Below, one piece after another: positions 9,190-60,400 of a stretch of 64,000 nucleotides of DNA (within the stretch, counting starts at the first letter, position 1; the number at the start of each line of letters is the position of its first letter). Under the pieces are notes generated by a model. It did no database searches. It was given only the letters and a program-made list of their open reading frames with translations, and was not told the origin of the DNA. The position numbers were made by a program, and so were the translations under genes. Source of the stretch: Muscardinus avellanarius (taxonomy: Eukaryota > Chordata > Mammalia > Rodentia > Gliridae); the NCBI GenBank assembly GCA_963383645.1, contig OY726565.1, positions 25,108,466-25,172,465 on the forward strand, written 5' to 3'.

Positions 9190-11150
9190 TTTTTTTTTAA
9201 ATATATTTTTTATTGGTGCATAGTAGTCAAACATCTTAATGGAATAAAAAACTTGTGGAGATATACATGCACACATTACCCAATTAGCCCTTATCCAATC
9301 CTATCCTATTCCCTCCCGCTCCCTTGTTCCCTTGCTTAATTTCTGATTGACTTTGATATGTTTGTGTAAGTACATCATGTGCTTTAAAGAGTTTCCATCT
9401 TCCCCCTCCCGTCCCCTCAGATAGGTCACCTTAATTGCTCCTCTATAGGGCCCCTTCTTCAACTAGAGTTCCCCCTATTACCCATTTCTCCCTAGTTTTC
9501 ACATATTAGGGAAAGCATCTGATTTCTTTTTTGTGTGACATTTCCCTGTAGATGCCATGATTTTGCTCTCCTTTATGGCTGGGTAAAATTCCACTGTGAG
9601 CCGGGTGTGGTGGCGCACACTTGTAATCCCCGCGCTTGGGAGGCAGAGACAGGAGGATCGCACAGGTTTGAAACCAGCCTCAGCTACTTAGTGAGGCTTT
9701 CAGCAACTTAGTGAGACCCTGTTTCCAAATAAGTATTAAAAAGGTCTGTGAGTATAGCCCAGAGGCAGAAAGCCTCTGGGTTCCACCCCAATACCACAAA
9801 AATAAAAATAAAAATAAAAATAAATCAAATCAAATAAAATAAAATAAAATAAAATTCCACTGTGTACATATCCCATAGTTTTGTAACCCACTTATCTGTT
9901 GATGGACATCTTGGCTGGGTCCATAGTTTGGGAATGATGAATTGTGCATCTATGAACATAGGTACTCGTGCATTGGTTTAGCAGTTTGGTTTTCATTTTT
10001 TGGGTAGATACCCATAGTTGGTATTGCTGGGTCATATGGTAAGTTCATTTTCCTTCTTCCATATCATTTTTCAAAGTGGTTGCATTAATTTGCAATCCCA
10101 CCAACAATGCACTAGAATTTCCAACTCTCCACACCTGATCAATTACAGCTTATCTCTTTCTTGGAAGTCCTACTTTTATTTTCCACACTATTTCCCATTT
10201 GCTGAAATCATGATAGCCAGAAGCTGAGTGACTCTGATAAGATGATCCACTCATAGTCAATTTTTAAATAGAGGTCACTTGGATCCAGAGATCTGCTGAG
10301 AGATGGGGTGAGACAGCAGCATCTTCAAGTGCTTCCTGACCGTACAATTGCAGTGACCCAGTGGCCTTATGCTGTGCAGCAGGTTACAGTTCCAGCCTCG
10401 CCACTTGGCAGGCTCCAATCCCAGCCTTGCAGGCCCCGGCACTGGCCTTGCTGTGTAGTATTTTCTGGTCTGCCTCACTATGGGCAAGCCGTCTACAAAA
10501 GATCCATTTTTTTCTTCCATGTTTTTTTTTTTTTTAAGTAGGAGAAAACAGTATGTGTCTTTTTCAATAGCTGGGAGCCCAAACACCTAGTAGCAATGAA
10601 TTTTGTCTCCCCTCCAAAGGTAGAGGTCCAGCTTCAGCACGGAGAGCGGGTTCTGCTGCTCTGAGCACACCCTGGGCCCAGCGCTGTGCAGAGGAGCACA
10701 GCGGCCAGGAGTGCCCTTATCTTCCGGGAAGCACGGCGCTTTGGCCGACCCAGCTATGCGGGGCTCCTTCTAATGCACCCCTAACATTTTTCTTACATAG
10801 TATGTTGTCCAGAATTCCTGAGCATGTGGGGCAGGAACAGTCTATTTTCAGGATGATTTCTTCAACAGTTCAAGGTGGATTGGATTGGATCAGTCTGCCT
10901 CTCCCAAATACTGTCCGCTGCTGCTGCCTCCACCACCACTGCTACCACCACTGCTATCTTGGTCTGTCTCCCCTCTCTCTTATTTTAAACAGAAAGTCAT
11001 GACTGGAAATGTTTCTGTATGTTGTTCCAATCAGATATTAAACCAAAATCTGTTGTCCAGGGTTTCTCAGAGGAATACTTGTCCTATTCGGCTGCTGGCA
11101 ACCGTTACTGCTGAGGCCGCCGCCGCCGCTGCCATCTTCAACGCCCCCTC
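9190..11150 (-). mobile_element. Composite L1-derived element, copy 1 (single GC-rich block)
   Basis: Minus-strand order, 5' to 3': a leader with an AAGATGGC motif and GCGGCGGCGG run (about 11.15-10.97 kb); an L1 5'-UTR-like monomer ending GACAACATACTATGTAAG (10.97-10.79 kb); a GC-rich block with AGCAGCAGAACCCGC; an A-run; a single unit related to the VNTR of copies 3 and 4 (about 10.46-10.37 kb); a connector with TCTCTCAGCAGATCTCTGG; then the last part of L1 ORF2, the 3' UTR and the A-tail at 9190-9199. The L1 coding body is missing. The same junction occurs in the plus-strand copy at 37.5-39.96 kb. A SINE with target-site duplication splits the 3' part. No convincing target-site duplication was found for the composite itself. 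Confidence 0.8.
9599..9849 (+). mobile_element. B1-dID SINE nested in composite copy 1
   Basis: The sense copy GCCGGGTGTGGTGGCGCACA...CACCCCAATACCAC is followed by an (AAAAT)n tail. It is bounded by the direct repeat taaaattccactgtg (9584-9598 and 9850-9864). The repeat duplicates L1 ORF2-terminal sequence, so the host composite is older than this SINE. Confidence 0.95.
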
Positions 11151-12506: not shown

Positions 12507-12918
12507 TCTTTGTTGTATGCAGAGTTAGCAAGGAATGAGAGACTTGAGAGTTCAAGGGAATGTGCCAATTGAAGCCTTTATTAGCTGGTCAGCGGCGGAG
12601 CCCTCAATCTAGAAATCAGACTAGTGGGGCACCCTGACTGATGGGGTTAGGGGCTTATAAGGGATAAGCAAGCAGGTTACAGAAGCAGAACTAGTAAGTT
12701 AGCTTATCTAGGTGGTCAAGTGCTGGGTAAGGCCTAGACTCCACCCAAGGTCAGAGGGTAGAGGAATTGTGGGGGAGGGATACCACAAAACACAGGAATT
12801 TCAGGTAGCCATTTGCATAGAGCAGGGGAGTGGTCCCCCAGCTAGCTGTAGATTAGCAGTTTAAAACAGGAAGGGGAGGCTTAAGGAGATTTAGTTACAC
12901 AATAATGTCAGGGGAGAC
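12507..12918 (-). mobile_element. Retroviral LTR (class I type), minus strand
   Basis: On the minus strand it starts TGTCTCCCCTGAC, has a CTTATAAGCC TATA-like box, an AATAAAGGC polyadenylation signal about 85 bases later and a terminal CA, typical of gammaretrovirus-like LTRs of about 400 bp. An env remnant on the same strand lies directly upstream, so it is the 3' LTR of that provirus. A matching 5' LTR was not found in the cluster. Confidence 0.7.
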
Positions 12919-12924
12919 AAGATG

Positions 12925-13700
12925 GAGTTTCTTCTGTTTCCACATCTTTTTATTAATAGTGGACCACCAAAATAATATAATGGCATAAACAATGTAGCTA
13001 TTTGATTTTTATCCTTAAATTCATTTGGACAACCCCTTGGAGCCCTGATTAAGTCAACATATATGTAAGAGTTCAATGACCCACTAAAGGGTTGAGGGAT
13101 ATACCTATTGGTCCTATATTGGACCTTAAGGGCCTTACTTGGGGTTTGAAATTCCATGGTGAAAGAGATTGCCAAGTGTACTAGAGAGAAAGTTTCATTC
13201 CAATTGGTGGGAAAGGTCTCAGGTAATGGTTTTCCACAATACTACCAGACATTTGCTCAGGCCACCGCTAATGAGGACTGATTATCTAGCTCCTCAAAGG
13301 ATCATTTATTACAGCCTGCGATATTGCTCCTAAACATTGATTGTCCCTTCCATTTTGAGGGGCACGAGGCTGGACAGTTTTTTTTGGGGGGCTCTTGCTT
13401 TGGGTCCTGAGTCACTGGGAACAGACTCATTGCCCCATTGCTGGATTGTCCTGAAAGAGGGCTAGTATGCATTTAATACCCATTGGGTCTGAGATCCATC
13501 TGAATGGAAAAGGTACCACTTGAGCCTTCCTGCCACACATGTGTAACAGTCACTCTTGTTTAAGGTGCTGGCAGAATTTCCAATCCATTTTAACTAGGTA
13601 TTTGTTTCCCCATATCCTGTCTTCTATCATCTGTGTAAATCCTCTATTTTTACTATAGTGGCCTCAGTTAAGGGGATAACATTAGCAGCTAAGGTGAATT
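12925..13700 (-). pseudogene. Endogenous retrovirus env remnant (class I-like)
   Basis: The minus-strand translation shows a degraded envelope with several stops and frameshifts. The best-preserved part (13175-12950) holds a glycine/proline segment followed by a NEFKxxNQIA-type motif seen in transmembrane subunits of some class I endogenous retroviruses. It ends against the LTR to its left, as env should. Non-functional. Confidence 0.6.
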
Positions 13701-15811: not shown

Positions 15812-16250
15812 TGTCGGGAATCCAGCCCGACAGCTGGCGGGGCTTGACGCGATGATGAGTACCGACGACTCGAACACAAACCCACGAGCTGGGAGTCAAG
15901 TCAAGCGAGATCTCATTTATTTCTCTCCAAGCCATCCTTTATATAGTACCAAGCCACAAGGGGAATTTCCATGAGAAATAGCCTAGCCTATCCAGGATAA
16001 AGATCACTAGCACGTAGCCAATCCCAGGCCAGTACATGAGCCATTCATGTGTGTGGAAAGCTCCTTTAAAGGTAGAAAGGGAAAAACCGCTCAGTCTCCC
16101 CACCCATAATGAATGGGGAAACCACGCCTTCCTAGCTTCCTCCAGGCGCCATCTTGACCCTTTTTTGCTGAATCACTTTACTTAAAGTTTTGCCTTAGGC
16201 CGTAGGCCGCTCAGGCCGAATCTCCTTAGGCGCTGTATAGACACACCCCA
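15812..16250 (-). mobile_element. Solo LTR (class II-like) inserted into gag
   Basis: Minus-strand features: AAGATGGCGCC near the 5' side, a TATATAAAGG TATA box, AATAAATGAG polyadenylation signal and a terminal CCCGACA. Flanks carry a short repeat (CTATC(TG)). A related uninterrupted sequence at about 17004-17049, on the opposite strand, shows the empty site. About 440 bp with no internal region, consistent with LTR-LTR recombination. Confidence 0.75.
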
Positions 16251-28390: not shown

Positions 28391-29926
28391 TCAACAATAT
28401 TTTCTTTTTTTATTAATTTATTTTTTAAATTGGTACATTGTATTCATATATCAATCACATTGGAGTACAAGACTTGAGAGGATATACAAGCACACATCAT
28501 CCAATTAGCCCTCATCCAGACCCCATCCCATTCCCTCCCCCTCCCTCCATCCCACGCTTCTTTGGTGATTTACTTTGATACATTTGTTTATGTACCTCCT
28601 GCGTTTTAAAGAGGCTCCGTCCTCCAGTATTACATACTCTCTGATTGGTTACATTAGTTGCTTCACTATAGGGCCCTTTCTAGAGCTCAACCTCTTCCTG
28701 TTGCCCTTTTCCTCCTAGTTATTGCTGATTAAGAGAAGTGTCTGATTGATATTTTCTGCGATATTTCTCTGTGCATGCTGCGTTGCAAGTACCGATCCCA
28801 CGCTTGATGGTCCCAGTAGTGGCCTGGCTACTCAGTGGACTGATCCAGACCTCGCTGGCTCAAGCAGCGGCCTTGCCTCATGGGAGGCCCCAGTTCTGGT
28901 CTCGCTGGCCCCTGTACCGGTCTAACCCCTAAGCTGTCTTTGGTCCCGGCCTTGTCGGCCGCAGGAGTGAACTTGCCTCACGCCAGGCTCCGATGCTGGC
29001 CATTAGCCCCTGCACCGGCCTAACCCCTTGGCAGGATTCCAATCCCGGCCTCAGAGGCCCCAGCACCGGCCTAGCCTCAAGGCAGGCTCCGATGCTGGCC
29101 TCACTGGCCCCAGCACCTGCCTAACCCCTCAGCAGGCTCTTATCCCGGCCTCGGAGGTCCCAGTACCGGCCTTGCCTCACGGCAGGCTCCGATGCCAGCC
29201 TCGCTGGCCCCAGCACCGGCCTAACCCCTCAGCAGGCTCTTATCCTGGCCTCGGAGGCCCCAGTACCAGCCTTGCCTCAAGGCAGGCTCCAATCCTGGCC
29301 TCGGAGGCCTCAGCACCGGCCTTGCCTCACGGCAGGCTCCAATGCCGGCCTCGCTGGCCCCAGCATCGGCCTCACCCCTCGGCAGGCTCCAATCCCGGCT
29401 TCGGAGGCCCCAATACTGGCCTTGCCTCACGGCAGGCTCCGGTGCCGGCCTCGCTGGCCCCAGCACCGGTCTAACCCCTCGGCAGGCTCTTATCCTGGCC
29501 TCGGAGGTCCCAGTACCGGCCTTGCCTCACAGCAGGCTCCGATGCCAGCCTCGCTGGCCCCAGCACCGGCCTAACCCCTCGGCAGGCTCTTATCCTGGCC
29601 TCGGAGGCCCCAGTACCGGCCTTGCCTCAAGGCAGGCTCCAATCCCGGCCTCGGAGGCCTCAGCACCGGCCTTGCCTCACGGCAGGCTCCAATGCCAGCC
29701 TCGCTGGCCCCAGCACCGGTCTAACCCCTCGGCAGGCTCCAATCCCGGCCTCAGAGGCCCCAGTACCGGCCTTGACTCACGGCAGGTTCCGGTGCCGGCC
29801 TCGCTGGCCCCAGCACCGGCCTAACCCCTCAGCAGGCTCTGATCCTGGCCTCAGAGGCCCCAGCATTGGCCATGCCTCACTGCAGGCTCCGATGCCGGCC
29901 TCGCTGGCCCCTCAACAATATTTTCT
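28391..29926 (-). mobile_element. Composite VNTR-L1 retrotransposon, copy 3 (SVA/LAVA-like)
   Basis: A perfect 15-bp direct repeat, tcaacaatattttct, bounds the element (28391-28405 and 29912-29926). Between them, in minus-strand order, are a 50-bp-period GC-rich VNTR (29911 to about 28830), a short degenerate GC-rich connector, and an L1 3'-UTR-like segment (about 28790-28425) ending in an A-rich tail at 28406-28430. The L1 part aligns with the 3' UTR in copy 1 and, with the same junction to the VNTR (around ttctgcgatattt...gcgttgcaagta), with copy 4 at 56.67 kb. No L1 coding sequence is present, so it would depend on L1 proteins in trans. The 5' monomers found in copies 1, 2 and 4 are absent, consistent with 5' truncation inside the VNTR. 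Confidence 0.9.
28830..29911. repeat. 50-bp GC-rich VNTR of copy 3 (about 21 units)
   Basis: The marker ggcaggctcc recurs every 50 bases (for example 29281, 29331, 29381). Two unit types are mixed. One carries tcgctggccccagcaccggc and taacccctc; the other tcggaggccccagtaccggc and ttgcctcac. They often alternate, giving a 100-bp higher-order period. CpG-rich and strand-asymmetric (pyrimidine/C-rich on plus). Long open frames across it result from lack of stops in the unit. Confidence 0.95.
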
Positions 29927-36289: not shown

Positions 36290-36703
36290 TTTTTTTTAGT
36301 ATTGGCGATTAAACTCAAGGCATTCTACCTCTGAGCTACATCCCAGCTATTTCTTTTGGGTGTGGTACTGAGGGTGGAACCCAGGGGCTTTTCTACTCCC
36401 AGACCTTTTTTATTTTTAACTTTATTTGGAAACAGGGTCTCACTAAGTAGCTGAGAGCCTCACCAAGTAGCTGAGGCTGGCTTTGAACCTGTGCAATCCT
36501 CCTGTCTCAGCCTCCCAAGCACTGGGATTGTAAGCATGAGCCATCACGCCCAGCCCTATTTTTTATTCTTTATTTTTCAAACAGGATCTCACTGAATTGC
36601 AGAGGGCCTCACAAGAAGCTGAGGCTGGCTAAGAACCCAGAGCCTTCCTGTCTCAGCCTCCCAATTACTGGGATTATTAGAGTGTGCCACCACACCCAGA
36701 TCT
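36290..36703 (-). mobile_element. B1-dID SINE split by a second SINE
   Basis: The tail half (36290-36352, GAGTTTAATCGCCAATACT on minus) and the head half (36556-36703, with TAATCCCAGTAATTGGGAGG) belong to one minus-strand copy. The insert at about 36353-36555 is a complete second copy in the same orientation. A SINE inserted inside a SINE. Confidence 0.85.
36353..36555 (-). mobile_element. B1-dID SINE nested in another SINE
   Basis: The complete minus-strand copy has a GCTGGGCGTGATGGCTCATG head and a CTGGGTTCCACCCTCAGTACC tail. It separates the halves of the older copy. Confidence 0.88.
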
Positions 36704-36877
36704 TTTCTTTTCTTGATGAGAACAGTATTTTTTTATTAAATGAAATTTTATTTATTTATTTTTTTTGTGGTACTGAGGGTGGGAGTCTCCCAATTACTGG
36801 GATTATTAGAGTGTGCCACCACACCCAGATCTTTTTTTTTTCTTGATGAGAATGGTATTTTTTTATTAAATGAAATT

Positions 36878-36900
<23 letters not shown>
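36660..36900. repeat. Local tandem duplication, unit about 120 bp
   Basis: cccaattactgggattatta through tattaaatgaaattttattt occurs at about 36661-36765 and again at about 36788-36890, with only a few differences (aacagt versus aatggt; one added T). The unit spans the SINE head and its flank, so it arose after the SINE inserted. Confidence 0.9.
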
Positions 36901-37486: not shown

Positions 37487-39971
37487 AAATAGAATTTGAG
37501 ACTGGGGGTCAAGGTGGTGGCTGTGGCCGCAGTGGCCACTGTGGCCCCAGCAAGGATAGCTGGCAGCGGCCAATAGGACATGTATTCCTCTGAGAAACCC
37601 CAGACATCAGATTTTGGTTTAATATCTGATTGGGGCAATATATGGAAACATAACCATGACTTCCTACCTAAAATATAAGAAAGAAGAGACAGACCAAGAT
37701 GGCAGAGATGGTGGTGGTGGTGGTGGCAGCGGCAGCCGCAGCGGCAGCCAATATTCGGGAGAGGTAGATAAATCCAATCCAACCTGCCTGGAACTGTTGG
37801 AGAAATCTCCCCCAAATGCTCCTGCCCAGGAACTCTGGACAACATTCTATGTAAGAAAAATGCTTGGGAGGAGGGCCAAGATGGCACTGGAGGCAATGGC
37901 CAGCATCAGGGAGAGGCAGGTAGATTTATTCTAATCCACCCTGAACTTTTGAGGAAATCTCCCTGAAAGTAGACTGCACCTGCCCCACAGGTTAAGGAAC
38001 TCTCGACAACATACTATGTAAGAAAAATGTTCGGGGCATGTTAGGTGTAGCCCCGCATAGTCGGTTCGGCCAGCATCACGTGTTCGCTCGAAGCAGCAGA
38101 ACCCGCTCTCCATGGTGAAGCTGTGGGCCTCTGCTCTTGGCAGGGAGATAAAACACATTGCTACTAAGTACTTGGGCCCCCAACTTCTGCAAAAGACTGT
38201 TTTTTTTAATTAAAAAATATTGAAGAGGGAGGAAGATGGTGACAGCTGTGGCTGCAGCGGCGACCACAGCCAGAGTGGTGTAGGTTGGCAGCAGCTGAAT
38301 AGGACATGCATCCCTCTGAGAAACCCTGAACAAGAGATTTTGATTTAATAGCTGATTGGGACAACACACAGAAACATTTCCAATAATGACTTCCTATCTG
38401 AACTATAGGAGAGAGAGTGGAAAATGGTGGAATTAGAGGCAAGACTACAGCGCAGCACCCGGCACTGCAAGAAAAGTGATTTTTGGAGGGATATCTCGGA
38501 AGAGATCTGAAAGCAGACTGCTCCTGCCACCCATGCACAGGAATACTTAACAACAACATATTCTAGGAGAGACCAAGAAAGCAGCAGCAGTGGCCAGTAT
38601 TCAGGAGAGGCAGACAGATCCAACCAAATCCACCTTGCATTTTTGAAGTAATCTCCCCCAAAGTAGACTGTTATTGCTCCACATGCTCAGGACCTCTGGA
38701 CAACATACTATGTAAGAAAAAGTTTTGTGGAGATGGACCAAGATAGCAGTAGTGGCGGTGACCAATATTCAGGAAAGTCAGACAGATCCAATCCAATCCA
38801 CCTTGAATTTTTGAAGAAATCTCTCCAAAAGTAGACTGCTCCTGCTGCACATGTGCAGGAATTATGGACAACATACTATGTAAGAAAAATGTCTGTGGCA
38901 AGTGGGAGGGAGCCCCACCCATATTGCTGAGCCACCATATATGGAGGGAAAAATGGGAACCTCTGTAAATGTCCTGCCCACAGAGACAGGGACCAGAGTC
39001 TGCCACATGGCGAGGCCAGGTCTGGAGCCAGCGAGGCCGGGCCCAGAGCCTGTTGCACAGCAGGCCTGGAACTGGGGCCTGCTCCACAGCAAAGTGCCAG
39101 TGGGTTTCTTCAGCTGTGTGGCCAGGAAGCACTAGAAGTTGCTGCTGCCTCACCTAATCTCTCAGCAGATTTCCAGATCCAAGTGACCTCTATTAAAAAT
39201 AATTGGTTGTGAGTGGATCATCTTGTCAAAGTTACTCACCTTCTGGCTTTCAGATTTTCAGTAAGTGGGAATAAGGGTGGAAAAATAGAAGCTCTAATAC
39301 ATTGTTGGTGGGATTGCAAGTTGGTGCAACACTTTGGAAAACAGTATAGAAGATCGTTAGAAGAAGGAAAACAAACTTACCATATGATCCAACAATACTC
39401 CAGGTATCTACCAAAAAGAATAAAAACCAAAATACCAAACTAATGCATGAACAACCATGTTCATAGCTGCACAGTTCACCATTGCCAAACTGTGGAACCA
39501 GCCAAGATGTCCTTCAACGGATGAGTAGATTTCAAAACTATGGGATATGTACACAATGGAATTTTGCCCAGCCATAATGGAGAACAAAATTATGGTATTT
39601 ACAGTGAAATGTCACAAAAAAGAAATCAGATGCTTTTCTTAATATGCAAAATATTATGGAGAAATGCATAACAGGAGGAACTCTAGATGAAGAAGGGACC
39701 CTATAAAGGAGCAATTAAGGTGACATATCTGAGTGGATAAGAGGGAGGATAAGGGAAACTCTTTAAAGCACATGATGTACTTAAACATATCAAGGTCAAT
39801 CAGGCAACCAAGCATGGGTAGGTGGGAAAGCGAGGGAAGTGGTTAGAGATTGGGTAGGGGCTGATTGGGTGATGTGTGTATGTATATCTCTACAAGTTTT
39901 TTTTTTTTTTATCCCATTGAGATGTATGTCTACAATGCACCAATAAAAATTTATTAAAAAATAGAATTTGA
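37487..39971 (+). mobile_element. Composite L1-derived element, copy 2 (plus strand, with target-site duplications)
   Basis: The direct repeat aaatagaatttga (37487-37499 and 39959-39971) bounds a 2459-bp body. Order: leader with GGCCGCAGTGGCC (37500-37680); two monomers with CCAAGATGGC and ending ACATACTATGTAAG (37687-38040); GC-rich block with GCAGCAGAACCCGC (38040-38215); a second leader copy (38220-38400) and three more monomers (to about 38900); GC-rich block homologous to a VNTR unit (about 38990-39100); connector with TCTCTCAGCAGATTTCCAG (39160-39240); L1 ORF2 3' end, including a CWWDCKLVQ-type stretch (39280-39600); 3' UTR; AATAAAAATTTATTAAAAA tail. The L1 coding body is missing, and the connector junction equals that of copy 1, so this is a family and not a one-off rearrangement. 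Confidence 0.9.
37500..38900 (+). promoter_or_regulatory. L1 5'-UTR-like monomer array within copy 2
   Basis: Five monomers of roughly 170-185 bp, each with an AAGATGG/AAGATAG start-proximal motif and a gacaacatactatgtaagaa end, in two blocks each preceded by a leader. Tandem 5' monomers are the promoter of several rodent L1 families, and AAGATGG matches the YY1 site that positions L1 transcription. Promoter function here is inferred from that analogy only. Confidence 0.6.
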
Positions 39972-41834: not shown

Positions 41835-42286
41835 AATTGCCCTCTCTCCCACCCGCTTCCCCTATCCCCCCCCCAACAATGAGTGTCCAGGTTAACTATG
41901 CTACATTCATACTTTTAAACAGATTCGAATGTAGCTCCTCCATTAATCAACCTCAGCCTTCTTTTTCTCCTACCCTTCCATTCTAGCTTTACTGAGGTTT
42001 CCCCTCCATTATCTGGAGTCCCTCTGGTATCCATAATACTCCCTAATTTGGGAATATTAGAGAAAATATATGTCTCTTCCCTTTCTGTGCTTGGCTGATC
42101 TCACTTAATGTTCTCCAGATCTTTCCATCTTCTTGTGAATGACATAATTTTCTTCTTTATTGCTGAGTAAACTTCCATTGTGTGTATTTCCCATAATTTT
42201 GCAATCCATTCATCTGTTGATGGAGACCTAGGTTGGTTCCATATTTTGGCTATTACAAATTGTGTTGCCATGAACATAGGTATGCA
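41835..42286 (-). mobile_element. L1 3' region, antisense arm of a rearranged copy
   Basis: Antisense L1 3' UTR and ORF2 end (ttattgctgagtaaacttcc, gcaatccattcatctgttga, tggctattacaaattgtgtt). It ends exactly where an inverted copy of its last 60 bases resumes at 42421. Confidence 0.85.
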
Positions 42287-42480
42287 AACTAGTTCAGCTA
42301 CTATGGAGATCAGTGTGAAAATTCCTTAGAAAATTGGGAATGGACCCACCATATAATCCAGCTATCCCACTCCTGGGTATCTTTCCAAAGGGGTGGAAAT
42401 CAGAAAACTACAGTAACTTATGCATACCTATGTTCATGGCAACACAATTTGTAATAGCCAAAATATGGAACCAACCTAGG
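42227..42480. repeat. Perfect 60-bp inverted repeat in L1 (foldback)
   Basis: 42227-42286 is the exact reverse complement of 42421-42480, separated by 134 bases of sense L1 ORF2 C-terminal sequence. The arms contain L1 ORF2 sequence encoding the conserved IAKxWNQP region. Confidence 0.95.
42300..42480 (+). mobile_element. L1 ORF2 C-terminal fragment, sense arm
   Basis: The plus-strand translation shows NPAIPLLGIFPKGWKSE and IAKIWNQPR, diagnostic of the L1 ORF2 C-terminal region. Orientation is opposite to both flanks. Confidence 0.9.
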
Positions 42481-42670
42481 TTGAAAAGGAGTGGTGTTAG
42501 TGGGCATCCTTGTCTTGTTCCTGATTTTAAAGGAAATTCTTGCAGTTGTTCCCCAACCAATATGATGTTGACTTTGGGTTTATTGTATACTGCCTTAATG
42601 ATGTTGAAAAACATTCCTTCAATTCCAATTTTCTGTAGTGCTTTTAACATGAATGGGTGTAATTCTGTGG
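42481..42670 (-). mobile_element. L1 ORF2 reverse-transcriptase fragment, antisense
   Basis: The minus-strand translation includes [18 protein letters not shown] and [14 protein letters not shown], which are palm-domain motifs upstream of the FADD motif of L1 reverse transcriptase. It abuts the foldback directly, so the intervening ORF2 sequence is missing. Confidence 0.9.
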
Positions 42671-43370
42671 GTAATCTGTCCGATCCAGTCTTAGCAGTAG
42701 GAATTTAGGGGTGTCAGGAGATTTGCGTATGGGTAAGCAGTGCTTTTTTCAATGGTAAGGGTTGGTTAAGGGGGGAAGAGCTGAGGTGATCGGTACAGGA
42801 ATCAGGTAAAGTAGAGGATATGATTTAGTTGAGTAAAAATTTAAGTATAATAAGGTAGTATCTGGTTGAGAATGATAGAAGGTTAGATAGTAGGATTCTT
42901 GTAGTTACTAGAATATTTAGGTATGGAAAGATGAAATAACTTGAATATAAACAACAAGATACAGTAAGAGGAAAAATTTTGAGAGAAGAGAGTAGATAGG
43001 CGAGAGTGAGGAAGTTTTTAACAGGAATGGAGAAAGGAGCAAACAAACATGCATAAGTAACAAAACATGTTACAAAAACTAACAATTATAAATCAAAGAC
43101 AAAAAATAAAATAAAAAAGGAATAAGAAAAAAAGAAAGAACAAAATTTTTAAAAAGAAAAGAATAAAAAAATCTACTAATGGTGTGAGAAAAAACAACAA
43201 AAAGTAGCAGTCCTGCTAATTTACATATATAAGGCCTGAGCCCATATAATATTTGTATGTCTGTTCACTGTGGTAGATTCTGGAGTATATTTTAATGTCT
43301 CTCATTTGCTCAGTAACCTATTGTCAGATTCTGGACTCACTTTATGAGTGTTTGTGCTCTTCTCTCACCT
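42671..43370 (-). mobile_element. Probable L1 leader or A-rich internal region, antisense
   Basis: AG/A-rich sequence between L1 RT and a GC-rich segment. It contains long A-rich runs with AAAAG units (about 43095-43180). Assignment to L1 rests on position between recognised L1 pieces. Confidence 0.35.
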
Positions 43371-43830
43371 CTGACAGCTTTGTGTTTAGGTGTCAGGGTG
43401 TCAGGTGTCACTGTTAATGAGTTCAGCGTAAGCTCAGAGTTCTGCATTTTCCCACTCTGGGCTCTGCACTTTCCAGCCCTGTGCTCCACACCCTCTGACT
43501 CTGGGCTCTGCACCCTCTGGCTCTGGGCTCCATGCTCTCTGTCTCTATCTCTGTGCTCTCTGCCCTGGGCTCTGCGCTCTCCGTGCTTTGTACCTTCCTG
43601 CCCTGGGCTTGTGCATCCCTACTGGCAGAGGGTGTCCAGTGTAGTCTTGGAGCAACCCCCTGTGACCCTATGTGGGCACCATGCCTTGAGCATTATGGGC
43701 CTTTCCTGTGTCTCTGGAGGTTCTAACTGGACTACCTCTGGTATGGGCCACCAGGTGTTAGCCCACTGGGGACTTGCTGCTGCTCTGGGCTTCTCTGGAT
43801 CTTAGCCCACCGGGGTCTTTCACTGAGTAA
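43371..43830. repeat. Degenerate minisatellite (ctctgggctctgca units)
   Basis: Repeated ctctg(g/a)(c/g)tct(g)(c/g) units of about 13-25 bases from about 43470 to 43600, flanked by GC-richer single-copy-like sequence. Open frames of 153 and 64 codons over it are repeat-derived. Position suggests it belongs to an L1 5' region. Confidence 0.6.
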
Positions 43831-47650: not shown

Positions 47651-47884
47651 TTTTTGTGCCAGTGCCCAGTTTACCATCATATATTTAAAATGTAACTTAT
47701 ATTTGGTCATCATATTTAAATATTATAGTTGATTTTTATTTGCTGCTGATAATATTTCTATCAGTAGATTTGCCTTTATGTTCGAAGTAGCAAAAGTCTG
47801 TTGCCTTTTGGCACTTAAAATGAGATGGCTGGCACAATTTAATGCACAATTTCTAGTCAAGTGTTGCTACTTAGTTTTTTTTTT

Positions 47885-48570
47885 TTACTTGAAATATATT
47901 TTAACACTTTTATTGGTGCATAATAATCTTATATCATAATGTAGTTCATAGTGATGGTGACATCCATGCACTTGGTTAGCTTTCCCCGGCTCCCTTCCCA
48001 CTACTCCCTTCCCTACCCAGGATATTGAGATTGGCATTGTTTCCTTCATTAACTATTCCTTTTCTTGACCCCTCCCCCTCCCCCTAGACCAACTTTCTTG
48101 CTTCACTGTGCAAGGAATGACTCCATTATCTGAAGTCCCACAGTATTTCAATTACTCCCTAGCTTCTGCATACAAGAAAAAACACATGACCCTTCACTTT
48201 CTGTGATTGGCTAATTTCACTTAAAACAATGTTCTCCACGTCCCTCTAGTCTCCTGCAAATGACATCACTTTGCTGTTCTTTATTGCTGACTAGAATTCC
48301 ATTGTGTGGCTAGCCCATAATTTTGTATTCATCTGTTGGTGGGTACCTTGGTTGGTTCCATTATTGGATTTTTGTGAACTGTGCTCCTATAAACATGGAT
48401 ATGCATACATCACTTTAATATTCTGATTTCTGTCTCTTTGGAAAGATACCTAGGTGTGGTATTGCTGGATTATAATGTGGATCCATCCCTAGTTTTCTGA
48501 AGAATCTTCACACTGATCTCCGTAGAGGCTACACTAATTTGCAATCTCACTAATAGTGTACAAGAGTATC
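47885..48570 (-). mobile_element. L1 3' end, antisense, 5'-truncated
   Basis: The T-rich start is followed by cttttattggtgcataataa, the C-rich ccctccccctccccct 3' UTR segment, aactattccttt, ttattgctgactagaattcc, attcatctgttggtgggta and caatctcactaatagtg. This is the standard L1 3' UTR/ORF2 end in reverse. About 690 bp, a typical truncated insertion. Confidence 0.9.
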
Positions 48571-49040
48571 TATATGCACAATATTCAGGACACTATTTAT
48601 GACCCAATTATGATAATACCTCCTCAGAGATAATAAACAGAAACTCTACCCAATTACAATAACACTTCTTCAGAGATAATAAGCAGAAACTCTACTTCTG
48701 TTTCATAAGTGAATAAAATACAAAATACCCCTCATTGATCTAAACTTAATCCTATAGAAAGACTAATAAACCAGAAGAGAGATGGATAAATTCTTGGTAA
48801 CTGAGTGGTATCCAACAGAAACATTACAGTTCATATTACTTAGCAGACTTTTTATTAACAAATTTGTTTGTTTTCATGCTTAAAGGGAAGCCATTTAACA
48901 TTTTTTGTTTTATTATACCTAATGATAAAAAATACAAAATTATGGCAGAATGGTAGGGGTACCAGGCACTATTTTTCTGCTTTCCAAACACTAACAGTGT
49001 AGTCAGAATATGTTTTTTAAGTAATTAAAATGTTTAATTA
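48571..49040. other. Short direct duplication, otherwise unassigned
   Basis: cctcctcagagataataaacagaaactctac (about 48619-48649) is followed by a near copy (about 48667-48697), giving a tandem unit of about 48 bp. No other feature seen. Confidence 0.6.
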
Positions 49041-51230: not shown

Positions 51231-51307
51231 TACTGAGACCCTCGACCGCGAGCAAACTCGCGCCCCATTGGACTAGTCGCGCCCCATTGGACTAGCTGGC
51301 TTTCGGC

Positions 51308-56658: not shown

Positions 56659-57059
56659 TATTCATTAATTATTTTTTAAATTTACTTTTATTGGTGCACT
56701 GTAATCATACATCACATTGGAATACAAGACTTGAAATGATATACAAGCACACATCATCCAATTAGCCCTCATCCAGTCCCCATCCCATTCCCTCCCCCTC
56801 CCTCAATCCTATGCTTGTTTGGTGATTAACTTTGATACATATGTTTATGTACCTCCTGCTTTTTAAAGAGGCTCCATCCTCCCCTATTCCATACCCTCTG
56901 ATTGGTCACCTTAATTGATTCACTATAGGGCCCTTTCTATAGCTCGGCCTCTTCCTGTTGCCCCTTTCCTCCTAGTTATTGCTGATTAGGGGAAGCATCT
57001 GGTTTTAATTTTCTGCGATATTTCACTGTGCATGCGGCGTTGCAAATATCGATCCCACT

Positions 57060-59440
57060 TTTGACGGCCCCAGTTGTGGCCTGGCTACCCGGTGGACTGA
57101 TCCAGACCTCGCTGGCTCAAGCAGCGGCCTTGCCTCATGGGAGGCCCCGATTCTGGTCTCGCTGGCCCTGACACTGGCCTAAACCTTCAGCTGGCTCCGA
57201 TCCCAGCCTCGCAGGCCCCAGCACCGGCTTTCCTCATGGCAGGCTCCAATGCTGGCCGATGGCCCCAGCATCGGCCTAACCCCTTGGCAGGCTCCAATCT
57301 AGGCCTCGGAGGCCTCAGTAGCGGCCTTGCTTCACGGAAGGCTCCGATGCTGGCCGCTGGCTCCGGCACTGGCCTAACCCCTAGGCAGGCTCCGATCCCG
57401 GCCTCCAAGACCCCGGCACCGGACTTGCCTTGCGGCAGGCTCCAATGCAGGCCGCTGGCCCCAGCATTGGCCTAACCCCTTGGCAGGCTCTGATCCCAGC
57501 CTCGGAGGCCTCAATAGCAACCTTGTCACACAGAAGGCTCTGATGCCAGCTGATGGCCCTGGCACCGGCCTAACCCCTCGGCAGACTCCAATTCCGACCT
57601 CAGAGGCCCTGGCTCTGGCCTTGTCTTACAGCAGGCTCCAATGCAGGCCGCTGGTCCCGGCATCAGCCTAACCCCTCGGCAGGCTCCGATCCCGGCCTCA
57701 GAGGCCCCAGCACCAGCCTTGCCTCATGGCTGGATCCAATGTCGGCCTCGTTAGCCCCAGCACCGGCCTAACCCCTCGGCAGGCTCCAATCCCGGCCTCG
57801 GAGGCCTCAATAGCAAGCAGCCTTGCCTCACGGAAGGCTCCGATGCCACCCGGTGGTCCCGGCACTGGCCTAACCCCTCAGCAGGCTCTGATCCCGGCCT
57901 CGGAGGCCCCAGCACCGGCCTTGCCTCACAGCAGGCTCCGATCCCGGCCATGCTGGCCCTGGCACCAGCCTGACCCCACGGTAGGCTGCGATCCCGGCCT
58001 CGGAGGCCCCAGCACCAGCCTTGCCTCACGGCAGGCTCCGATCCTGACCTCGCTGGCCCCAGCACCGGCCTAACCCCTCAGCAGGCTCTGATCCCGGCCT
58101 CGGAGGCCTCAATAGCGGCCTTGCCTCACAGAAGGCTCCGATGCCAGCCGTTGGCCCTGGCACCGGCCTAACCCCTTAGCAGGCTCCGATCCCGACCTTG
58201 GAGGCCCCAGCACTGGCCTTGCTTCATGGCTGGCTCCAATGCCGTCCTCGCTAGCCCCAGCACTGGCCTAACCCCTCGGCAGGCTCCAATCCCCGCCTCA
58301 GAGGCCTCAATAGCGGCCTTGCCTCATGGAAGGCTCCGATGCCACCCGGTGGTCCCGGCACCGGCCTAACCCCTCAGCAGGCTCTGATCCCGGCCTCGGA
58401 GGCCCCAGCACCGGCCTTGCCTCACAACAGGCTCCGATCCCGGCCACACTGGCCCTGGCACCAGCCTGACCCCTTGGTAGGCTCTGATCCCGGCCTCGGA
58501 GGCCCCAGCACTGGCCTTGCCTCACGGCAGGCTCCGATCCTGACCTCGCTGGCCCCAGCACTGGCCTAACCCCTCAGCAGGCTCCCATCCCAGCCTCAGA
58601 GGCCTCAATAACGGCCTTGCCTCATGGAAGGCTCTGATGCCGGTCGTTGGCCCCGGCACCGGCTTAACCCCTTGGCAGTCTCCGATCCTGGCCTCGGAAG
58701 CCCCAGCACTGGCCTTGCCTCACGGCTGGCTCCGATGCCAGCCTTTGGCCCCGGCACCGGCCTAACCCCTTAGCAGGCTCCGATCCCGGCCTTGGAGGCC
58801 CCAGCACCGGCCTTACCTCATGGCAGGCTCCGATCCCGGCCTCGCTGGCCACGTCACCAGCCTAACCCCTCGACAGGCTCCAATCCCGGCCTTGGAGGCC
58901 CCAGCTCCGGCCTTGCCTCACAGTAAGCTCTGATCCCGGCCTTGCTGGCCCTGGCACCAGCCTAACCCCTTGGCAGGCTCCAATCCCAACCTCTAAGGCC
59001 AGAGCACCGGCCTTGCCTCACAGAAGGCTCCAATTCCGGCCTCGCTGGCCCCAGCACCGGCCTAACCCCTCAGCAGGCTCTGATCCCAGCTTCGGAGGCC
59101 CCAGTAGCGGCTTTGCCTCACAGCAGGCCCCGATGTCGGCCATTGGCCCTGGCACCGGCCTAACCCCTCAGCAGGCTCTGATCCTGGCCTCAGAGGCCCC
59201 AGTACCGGCCTTGCCTCATGGAAGGCTCCAATCCTGGCCTTGTTGGCCGGCCCAGGCACTGGCCAAACCCCTCGGCATGATCCGATCCCGGCTTCACTGG
59301 CCCCAGCACCAGCCTAACTACTAGGGTGGCTCCGATCCTGGCCTTGGAGGCTCCAACACCGGCCTTGCCTCACGACAGGCTCCAATACCAGCTTTGCTGT
59401 GTCCGTCGCCGGCCTCACCCCTCGGCAGGCTCTAATCCGA
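57060..59440. repeat. 50-bp-type GC-rich VNTR of copy 4 (about 48 units)
   Basis: The same unit types as in copy 3 (taacccctcggcaggctcc and ttgcctcacggcaggctccg) recur about every 48-50 bases. Additional unit variants have an atgccggccgttggccc-like 3-way variant and a ttgcctcatggaaggctc variant. Larger blocks repeat: the 57780-58100 and 58270-58590 intervals are near copies, indicating segmental expansion. Confidence 0.93.
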
Positions 59441-59995
59441 GCACCCTCTTTGCCCAACCATTTGTCCCACATTCTCGAGGGTGTGTGGTAGTAGCATTCT
59501 GCCTCTGGGGTCATTACTTCAAAGGTTCAAGGTGTAATGCATCAGATCTCTGCCTCCCCTGAGTACTGGCCACTGCCATTGCCACTGCCTCCACAATTTC
59601 AAATCTTTCCCAAGCTCTTTTTCCATTCTGAATGTTGTCCAGTGTTCCTAAGCATGTGTGATGGTAGCATTTGACCTTTGGTGTAATTTCTTAAAAAAAA
59701 AAAAATAAGGTTTGTAGGCTCTGATTTCTGCTTCTCCTGAATACAAGTCTCCACCGCCAACGTGGAGACCGCTTTCAGCACCGTCTTTCTCCTTGGTCTC
59801 CACTAAACTCTCTCCTTACAGGTGATGTCCAAGATTCTTAACAATGTGGAGAAGAAGCAGTCCTCCTTAGCGGGGAATTTTTCCAATAATTCCAGTTCAT
59901 TTGGATAAGTTTGTCTGCATCTCCAGTATCCTGGCATCCGCCACGGCCTCCTTGACCCCTCTCCGATATTTTCATTTTTTTCTTTTTCTTTTCCT
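59441..59995 (-). promoter_or_regulatory. L1 5'-UTR-like monomers in copy 4
   Basis: Three diverged units share the aatgttgtccagtgttcctaagcatgtg and gtaatttcttaa...ggtttg order with the monomers at 10.79-10.97 kb and 37.69-38.9 kb. By analogy with L1 5' monomers they might have promoter activity; no direct evidence. Confidence 0.6.
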
Positions 59996-60000
59996 TTTTT

Positions 60001-60388
60001 ACAGGGTCCTTCCGGGTGAAAAGGGGGTTGCCTAGGGGTGCCCCACCATTGCCTGCCCACCTGCCCAAGGTCGGGGCCAGAGGCCTGGACCACAGGGTCC
60101 TTCCAGGTGGGGAGGGGTGTCACCTAGGGATGCCCCGCCAGCGCCTGCCCCGCCAGCGCCTGCCCACCCCCCCAGGGTCGGGGCCAGAGGTCCGGACCAC
60201 AGGGTCCTTCTGGGTGGAGAGGGGGTCGCCGAAGGGTGCCCCGCCAGTGCCTGCCCACTGCCCACCCGCCCAGGGTCGGGGCCAGAGGCCTGGACCACAG
60301 GTTCCTTCCAGGTGGAAAGGGGGTCACCTAGGGGTGCCCCGCCAGCGCCTGCCCACCTGCCTAGAGTTGGGGCCAGAGGCCCGGACCC
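60001..60388. repeat. Second GC-rich tandem array at 5' end of copy 4
   Basis: Four units starting acagg(g/t)tcctt at 60001, 60092, 60199 and 60297, of 91, 107, 98 and about 92 bp. Shared segments are ggtcggggccagaggcc and gccccgccagcgcctgccca. The 107-bp unit has an internal gccagcgcctgcccc duplication. CpG-dense. Confidence 0.95.
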
Positions 60389-60400
60389 TATTCATTAATT

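Follow-up and report, generated by a model that had tools for sequence, protein, structure and literature searches.

The VNTR composites SVA, LAVA, PVA and FVA are built around a central VNTR of GC-rich units of 30 to 50 bp. SVA is non-autonomous, is flanked by target-site duplications (TSDs) and joins a 5′ CT-hexamer repeat, an Alu-like region, the VNTR and a retroviral piece (SINE-R), while the gibbon element LAVA has L1 sequence in its 3′ part, the U1-AluSz-U2-L1ME module, behind a CT/Alu-like 5′ end. Non-autonomous elements can also be simplified LINEs: the RIME/NARTc-type deletion derivatives of trypanosomatids keep the LINE ends without the ORFs, although they have no VNTR and belong to a different LINE clade. 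HAL1s are non-autonomous L1 derivatives that encode ORF1p. One source has them arising independently several times (PMC5753468). Another describes the VNTR composites as hominoid specific, has SVA mobilized by L1 in trans, places the conserved units of LAVA VNTRs only at both ends of the array and leaves open the role of the VNTR in retrotransposition (PMC4432496).

Here we analyze an element in a 64-kb window of rodent DNA (the whole stretch examined) that would work like SVA and LAVA but is most probably not a member of their group, no CT hexamer having been found and an L1 3′ UTR standing in place of the known 3′ modules. It probably belongs to a non-autonomous family of L1 descent, whose founder would have shed ORF1 and almost the whole of ORF2 while retaining its 5′ UTR monomers, the GC-rich stretch that follows them and the 3′ UTR.

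Results

Four related copies were found in the window, whose SINEs have features suggestive of sciurid rodents. Copy 4, the VNTR-bearing element under study, occupies positions 56659-60400 on the minus strand within exact 12-bp direct repeats, a duplication equalled in 1 of 400 random windows. From its 5′ to its 3′ end, it consists of the following parts.

60389..60400, minus strand: 5′ TSD AATTAATGAATA, exact 12-bp match to 56659-56670
60001..60388, minus strand: 5′ GC-rich array of ~98-bp units, ~4 copies by length (TRF)
59966..60000, minus strand: A-rich stretch joining the GC array to the monomers (sequence)
59441..59965, minus strand: three decayed L1-5′-UTR-like type-B monomers (blastn hits to their counterparts in copies 1 and 3); matched parts at ~59823-59961, ~59632-59755 and ~59462-59578
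57066..59440, minus strand: VNTR parsed into 48 units, in which A and B alternate as a dimer; 10 units make up a higher-order period of ~496 bp
57056..57153, minus strand: 3′-terminal 98-bp VNTR stretch, conserved in copies 2 and 4, leading into their common VNTR/L1 junction
56671..57065, minus strand: L1 3′ UTR and short A-rich tail (alignment)
56778..56802, minus strand: polypurine tract, rich in G and bearing a G-quadruplex motif; present in three of the four copies and absent from copy 3
56687..56692, minus strand: AATAAA polyadenylation signal
56659..56670, minus strand: 3′ TSD AATTAATGAATA, exact 12-bp match to 60389-60400

The structural parts that an earlier note on this DNA had read from the letters were all recovered: the 12-bp TSD, a GC-rich tandem array (TRF core at 60052-60361, ~98-bp period, 3.1 copies; 72% GC over 60001-60388), L1 5′-like monomers (59441-59970 matches those of copies 3 and 1), a 2.4-kb VNTR (2,375 bp, 67% GC versus 41% for the window), an L1 3′ UTR matched in alignment by all three other copies at their 3′ ends, and an A-rich tail, which is short (~12 nt). 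G-rich polypurine tracts are known from L1 3′ UTRs. The VNTR units are ~50 bp long, and types A and B alternate except for two same-type neighbors. As the note had also stated, copy 4 appears to be noncoding: its longest sense-strand ATG ORF has 66 aa, and Pfam scans at an E value of 0.1 of a 119-aa stop-to-stop frame and of five of its seven ATG ORFs that reach 50 aa gave no match.

The other copies, together with an L1-like 3′ end that serves as a yardstick of the local L1 lineage, are as follows.

28406..29911, minus strand: copy 2, 5′ truncated inside the VNTR, 15-bp exact TSD at 29912-29926 and 28391-28405
37500..39958, plus strand: copy 3, older type, 13-bp exact TSD
38970..39085, plus strand: VNTR precursor units in copy 3, local score of 39 against the copy 4 VNTR, reached by 0 of 300 shuffles
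9195..11150, minus strand: copy 1, older type, 5′ boundary uncertain, nested SINE at ~9599-9850
10356..10470, minus strand: VNTR precursor units in copy 1, local score of 41 against the copy 4 VNTR, reached by 0 of 300 shuffles
47850..48566, minus strand: L1-like 3′ end that lacks VNTR and monomers and runs collinearly with copy 3 over the latter's 3′ part

Exact TSDs of 12 to 15 bp bound three of the four copies (those of copies 2 and 3 were equalled in 0 and 1 of 400 random windows, respectively), and all four have A-rich ends and AATAAA, as in L1-type target-primed insertion. A TSD of copy 1 is at most putative: the best exact flanking repeat has 9 bp and was matched in 88 of 400 random windows, and there is also a 12-bp candidate repeat with one mismatch. 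Duplication of a single locus as the source of the copies was rejected, their TSDs being different. The L1 target-site consensus is TTTT/AA, and by eye, at most one copy has a good fit to it. A 28-base 3′-UTR pattern found the four source copies and no fifth in the window; exact scans of viral and prokaryote collections with this pattern gave no matches, as expected for collections not meant for mammals.

The copies fall into two states. In the older one, represented by copies 1 and 3, the 5′ monomers are followed by one and a half to two VNTR-like units and a C-terminal remnant of ORF2; copy 3 reads as L1 5′ monomers, about two VNTR-like units, ORF2 remnant and L1 3′ UTR, and copies 1 and 3 are collinear across precursor, remnant and 3′ UTR save for the nested SINE and short indels. 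In the younger state, represented by copies 2 and 4, the VNTR is large (1.1 kb in the truncated copy 2, 2.4 kb in copy 4), the ORF2 remnant is gone, and both copies have one common VNTR/L1 junction. Their alignment is continuous from the last VNTR unit through the junction into the 3′ UTR, with 53 differences over 483 positions and 9 gap columns.

The ORF2 remnants, for which there was no Pfam match, were recognized through PDB sequences, with E values against human LINE-1 ORF2p of 1e−6 for copy 3 and 5.9e−9 for copy 1. Remnant and 3′ UTR together make up the L1 3′ end of a deletion derivative; the 3′ UTR is common to copies 1, 3 and 4, and copy 4 keeps nothing else of that end. The earlier proposal of an L1-derived 3′ end is supported. 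The VNTR runs straight into a 3′ UTR found also in the local L1-type copies. The 3′ part of copy 3 aligns with 47850-48600 over 742 columns with a score of 144, where the best of 200 mononucleotide shuffles scored 48.5, and the copy 4 3′ end (56671-57065) aligns, more distantly, with the same region (~47850-48600). It is on the alignment with copy 3 that we base the L1-like identity of the element at 47850-48566; a 30-aa piece at 48418-48507 matched LINE-1 ORF2p weakly (E of 0.047), behind two unrelated chains at 0.004. The sequence downstream of another L1 ORF2 piece, at 42319-42705, showed no similarity to the composite 3′ UTR.

Blastn detected the monomers in three of the copies (1, 3 and 4) and no others across the window. 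The motif CAAGATGGC, which we take to be a marker of L1 5′ UTRs, has three sites in the whole window, two at the copy 3 monomers and one at 16148, outside the copies. On the strength of this motif and of their position, we read the monomers as L1-5′-UTR-like and as a putative promoter.

A recognizable ORF1 was not found in copies 4, 3 and 1, and in copy 3, only 400 bp separate the monomers from the ORF2 remnant. From 32 segments of at least 45 aa in copies 1 and 3 and the copy 4 monomers, 10 from copies 1 and 3 were scanned against Pfam; none had an L1 domain, and three gave weak, unrelated matches far below the cutoffs. These data bear on the alternative in which an autonomous L1 subfamily carries the VNTR in its 5′ UTR, the copies being L1s that each lost their ORFs. 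Both ends of the element are indeed L1-like, and the VNTR-like units of copies 1 and 3 do lie behind 5′ monomers; however, the ORFs are missing from all four copies, and one junction is common to copies 2 and 4 and another to copies 1 and 3, which would not be expected of independent deletions. We consider this alternative improbable and favor descent from an L1 deletion derivative.

Similarity between precursor and VNTR was not reached by any of 300 shuffles in each of four tests. Rather than a fusion of unrelated modules, copy 4 is thus better described as an L1 deletion derivative whose VNTR expanded from sequence already present in older relatives. When the units of copies 2 and 4 were compared, the nearest same-type unit was in the same copy for 44 of 70 and in the other copy for 12 of 70, the rest being tied, and so the arrays have been partly reshaped within lineages or in place. 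Taken further, this observation, and the difference in best unit lag (10 in copy 4 versus 7 in copy 2), could point to satellite growth outside any mobile RNA, the VNTR having enlarged where it lay once a small L1 derivative had inserted long ago. Against this, copy 2 is 5′ truncated within the VNTR and its TSD abuts a VNTR unit, therefore that VNTR was in the RNA before insertion; moreover, the A/B dimer and the same terminal VNTR stretch are common to copies 2 and 4. Purely local expansion is thus very hard to credit, and in-place remodeling on top of a mobile VNTR is the likely course of events.

Neither VNTR contains a G3-type quadruplex motif, which would have been a possible tie to function. 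A protein search with the VNTR reading frame of copy 2 yielded 878 candidates, none at an E value of 0.001.

The 5′ GC-rich array has no match elsewhere in the window and was found in one of the four copies, copy 4; copy 2, being truncated at its 5′ end, is uninformative on its presence. Its final 100 bp, 60001-60100, were the stretch compared with the VNTR; a relationship was rejected for them, their score of 11 being reached by 212 of 300 and by 148 of 300 shuffles. The array is part of the inserted cDNA because it lies inside the TSD, and it would most likely represent a 5′ transduction or a template switch onto another RNA. It could instead belong to the younger subfamily as a fixed 5′ module, much as CT repeats do in SVA, and not be a one-off transduction or chimera. 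Its place at the exact 5′ end within the TSD and the silence of copy 2 leave room for such a module, and, as a point against a template switch, such switching was found mostly with U6 and U6atac RNA (PMC4476161). The array is, however, missing from the two older copies, and an A-rich stretch parts it from the monomer boundary, as expected if a polyadenylated RNA had been joined 5′. A constant module is therefore conceivable but rather doubtful, and transduction or template switching is preferred.

Discussion

The earlier note had taken copy 4 for an independent element of the SVA/LAVA design. That stands as regards its non-autonomous nature, central GC-rich VNTR, L1-derived 3′ end, TSD and three relatives in the window, but as regards its composition, an L1 deletion derivative is a better description than the module fusion seen in SVA. 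Like SVA, copy 4 has a VNTR of ~30- to 50-bp units and no recognized ORF. Unlike SVA, it opens with the 98-bp array, no array with a 6-bp period being detected in 56659-60400 by TRF at a score of 50. Where the Alu-like region would sit beside the 5′ repeat, it has putative L1-like monomers that recur in copies 1 and 3, and the VNTR leads directly into an L1 3′ UTR instead of SINE-R, U1-AluSz-U2-L1ME, PTGR2 or FRAM, modules that were considered by description. An Rfam scan of the whole window at gathering scores, which is not a test for Alu, gave no matches. The likeness to LAVA lies in a VNTR combined with L1 sequence in the 3′ part, although here the two adjoin directly, and in the VNTRs of copies 2 and 4 sharing their 3′ edge and differing inside; their 5′ edges are not comparable given the truncation of copy 2. 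HAL1 is likewise a non-autonomous L1 derivative, but one with ORF1 and without a VNTR in the middle.

Descent from a common SVA/LAVA ancestor would account for the like order of a tandem 5′ region, a GC-rich VNTR of ~50-bp units, a 3′ module with an A-rich end and a TSD. It is at odds with the lack of a hexamer array, with monomers in place of the Alu-like region, with a VNTR precursor in older local elements and with the hominoid-specific distribution reported in PMC4432496. By this comparison of described parts, true membership is exceedingly unlikely. Among the matches listed in our literature search, no title or abstract opening mentioned a VNTR composite in a rodent, and in the only paper with both “VNTR composite” and “rodent” the phrase sits in the reference list; most subscription papers lie outside this search.

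The preferred reading, an ORF-less L1 derivative, suggests an order of events in which ORF loss would have been followed by expansion of the internal repeat and then by loss of the last ORF2 piece. RNA polymerase II would transcribe the element from the L1-type monomers; in copy 4, the start would lie in or before the 5′ array, unless the array joined later. The RNA would be polyadenylated at AATAAA. The proteins of an intact L1, acting in trans, would recognize its poly(A), possibly along with the G-rich L1 3′ UTR, and insert it by target-primed reverse transcription. The window showed no intact L1 sharing these ends, so mobilization in trans is an inference. Unequal exchange or replication slippage at the DNA level would make the VNTR grow and shrink, both in source copies and after insertion.

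Whether L1 simplification alone, without Alu or retroviral capture, can give rise to an SVA-like element in a rodent lineage, independently of apes, is a question on which we judge the chances to be even. A second case of separate origin, in which the likely precursors survive, would tell the recurring features of the design, namely a GC-rich VNTR in the center whose 3′ edge is conserved and L1-type insertion, from the accidental ones, namely the Alu-like and retroviral parts. By such comparison, the role of the VNTR in L1-mediated copying becomes testable.

The four copies look old: non-CpG divergence is ~5% per copy, a level that, judged from sequence, speaks against recent activity.

Structure and copies of the composite element

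Copy 4, the element under study, has the layout that the earlier note had described for it on the minus strand, all its parts being enclosed by an exact target-site duplication (TSD), AATTAATGAATA, of 12 bp:

60389-60400 and 56659-56670, minus strand: TSD
60001-60388, minus strand: GC-rich array of ~98-bp units, the 5'-most part inside the TSD
59966-60000, minus strand: A-rich junction between the GC-rich array and the monomers
59441-59965, minus strand: three monomers (L1-5'-UTR-like repeats) with matched parts of 117 to 139 bp
57066-59440, minus strand: VNTR (GC-rich array of ~50-bp units), between the monomers and the 3' end
56671-57065, minus strand: 3' end with a G-rich polypurine tract, AATAAA, and an A-rich tail of ~12 nt

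The statement that it lacks coding sequence was also borne out. The longest ATG ORF on the sense strand is of 66 aa, and at an E value of 0.1 no Pfam match was obtained for the five scanned of its seven ATG ORFs of at least 50 aa (both strands), nor for a 119-aa stop-to-stop frame.

Comparison of copy 4 with the window by blastn identified three more copies:

about 9195-11150, minus strand: copy 1
28406-29911, minus strand: copy 2
37500-39958, plus strand: copy 3

A window scan with a 28-base pattern from the four 3' UTRs, allowing up to three mismatches, recovered the same four places and no fifth. Over 342 to 354 aligned positions, the 3' ends were 89.3% identical between copies 2 and 4 and 83.3% between copies 1 and 3, versus 70.2 to 76.1% in the four comparisons across these two groups. 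Exact flanking repeats of 12, 15, and 13 bp were found for copies 4, 2, and 3, respectively; of 400 random windows tested per copy against the actual 3' flank, 1, 0, and 1 matched equally well. The best exact repeat flanking copy 1 (9 bp) was equalled in 88 of the 400 random windows, and its 5' boundary and TSD are putative; with one mismatch its best repeat was 12 bp, a figure that carries no random-window control.

An older state with an ORF2 remnant

Between the end of the monomers and the 3' end, copies 1 and 3 are collinear except for a SINE within copy 1, which is a later insertion, and short indels, the largest of about 50 to 60 bp. Both keep a remnant of the LINE-1 ORF2 C terminus: a 50-residue stretch in copy 1 (E 5.9e-9) and a 25-residue stretch in copy 3 (E 1e-6) match LINE-1 ORF2p chains in the PDB. 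Upstream of the remnant, judged by alignment length, copy 1 has about one and a half VNTR-like units and copy 3 about two. Aligned locally with the VNTRs of copies 4 and 2, these units scored 37 to 43, with shuffle maxima of 17 to 22; the observed score was reached by 0 of 300 shuffles in all four tests. In copies 2 and 4 the VNTR is large and the ORF2 remnant is missing. Because the remnant is L1 sequence, it is ancestral, and this, together with the greater divergence of copies 1 and 3 (K2P 0.19 versus 0.12 for copies 2 and 4), polarises the series, with the state of copies 1 and 3 coming first. In this order the VNTR expanded inside the lineage, from which the last ORF2 piece dropped out. 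We file copy 4 as an L1 deletion derivative turned VNTR composite.

Source of the 3' end

The window contains a further element against which the 3' ends could be aligned:

47850-48566, minus strand: L1-like 3' end with decayed ORF2-like peptides in its frames

This element has neither monomers nor VNTR, and a 30-aa piece of it matched LINE-1 ORF2p weakly (E 0.047), ranking below two unrelated chains (0.004). Its alignment with the 3' part of copy 3 (742 columns, 444 identical) scored 144 against a maximum of 48.5 from 200 mononucleotide shuffles; scores and shuffle maxima for the other copies were 80 and 44 (copy 1), 45 and 35 (copy 4), and 40 and 37.5 (copy 2). GCACCAATAAAA forms the terminal bases of this element and of copies 1, 3, and 4, copy 2 differing there. 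Given these alignments and the common end, the local L1 lineage is the most likely source of the 3' end of the copies, but no L1 in the window combines the composite's 3' UTR with intact ORFs. In a cruder test, whose random windows could overlap the four copies, the 600 bp downstream of the three L1 pieces exceeded the 95th-percentile score of the random windows in 2/3 comparisons at 48254, 3/3 at 42134, and 0/3 at 42479.

Two ORF2-like L1 pieces adjoin on opposite strands (42134-42286, minus; 42283-42705, plus), possibly through an L1 5' inversion or two insertions; the fragment at 42319-42705 matches LINE-1 ORF2p with an E value of 2.7e-13.

Mobility and remodelling of the VNTR

The copy 4 VNTR (2375 bp, 67% GC) was parsed, with allowed unit lengths of 48 to 51 and 54 bp, into 48 units of types A and B that alternate except for two same-type neighbours. 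Unit identity peaks at lag 10 (mean 0.81, versus 0.76 to 0.78 at other even lags and 0.67 to 0.68 at odd lags), corresponding to the 496-bp TRF period. Copy 2 starts within the VNTR, its TSD abutting a VNTR unit, as expected from 5' truncation during reverse transcription; the VNTR was mobile. The comparison of copies 2 and 4 covers the 3' edge, copy 2 being 5' truncated; one continuous alignment spans the last VNTR stretch, the VNTR/L1 junction, and the 3' UTR, the two copies differing at 53 of 483 positions, with 9 gap columns. Conservation is lower among the internal units. For 44 of 70 parsed units the nearest same-type unit lay in the same copy and for 12 in the other, the rest being ties, and the best lag was 10 in copy 4 versus 7 in copy 2 (TRF periods of 100, 150, and 250 bp in the latter). 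The VNTR thus has a common 3' edge and a remodelled interior. For LAVA VNTRs, PMC4432496 describes conserved units at the ends only and remodelling at the DNA level. No G3-type quadruplex motif was found in the VNTRs.

A short GC-rich minisatellite (22/44-bp, TRF) at 43441-43546 had no match in the blastn comparison of copy 4 with the window.

The 5' end

Copies 1 and 3 contain both type A and type B monomers, copy 4 contains type B alone, and the rest of the window has neither. CAAGATGGC and GAATAGGA are motifs that we take to mark mammalian L1 5' UTRs. Of the three window sites of the former, two are at copy 3 monomers and one is at 16148 (minus strand), outside the four copies. The latter, found in type A monomers, has six window sites and is a weak marker. 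The 5' region of copy 3 (37500-38890) is partly doubled, A and B monomers being followed by a unique stretch ending A/T-rich and by A and B monomers again.

The GC-rich array of copy 4 lies inside the TSD and so belonged to the cDNA that was inserted. It may be a constant module of the family; it has no relative in the window, and a 100-bp stretch of it showed no relation to the VNTR above shuffles. The A-rich stretch that separates the array from a monomer boundary is consistent with a switch of template onto polyadenylated RNA, or with 5' transduction. According to PMC4476161, LINE template switching occurs mostly with U6 and U6atac RNA, a preference that counts somewhat against a template-switch origin of the array.

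Relation to known composites, and age

Copy 4 resembles SVA and LAVA in being protein-less, VNTR-centred, and inserted in the L1 manner, and to this extent the SVA/LAVA-like design put forward in the earlier note stands. It is not a member of these families: a search of copy 4 for the hexamer array found none, the VNTR leads directly into an L1 3' UTR in place of a known 3' module, and L1-like monomers occupy the position expected for the Alu-like part. Nor is it HAL1, an element that encodes ORF1p (PMC5753468). A literature search of titles and abstract starts, with subscription papers thinly covered, gave no such rodent element among the matches listed; the element may already be catalogued.

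With CpG sites left out, copies 2 and 4 differ by a K2P of 0.104, about 5% per copy since their common source, which mammalian neutral rates place at the order of 10 to 25 million years. These copies therefore give no support for recent activity. The window's SINEs presumably resemble the B1/ID type known from squirrels. A review (PMC5857283) reports that LINEs and SINEs are quiescent in the ground squirrel, which would agree with the copy ages if the host belonged to that group.

TRF also detected tandem duplications of ~130 to 146 bp involving SINE-like sequence (36430-36895) and a perfect 19-bp tandem duplication, TCGCGCCCCATTGGACTAG, at 51258-51295. An open frame at 12891-13241 (minus strand), with no Pfam match at an E value of 1, encodes a peptide that we take, by eye, to resemble a retroviral envelope remnant.
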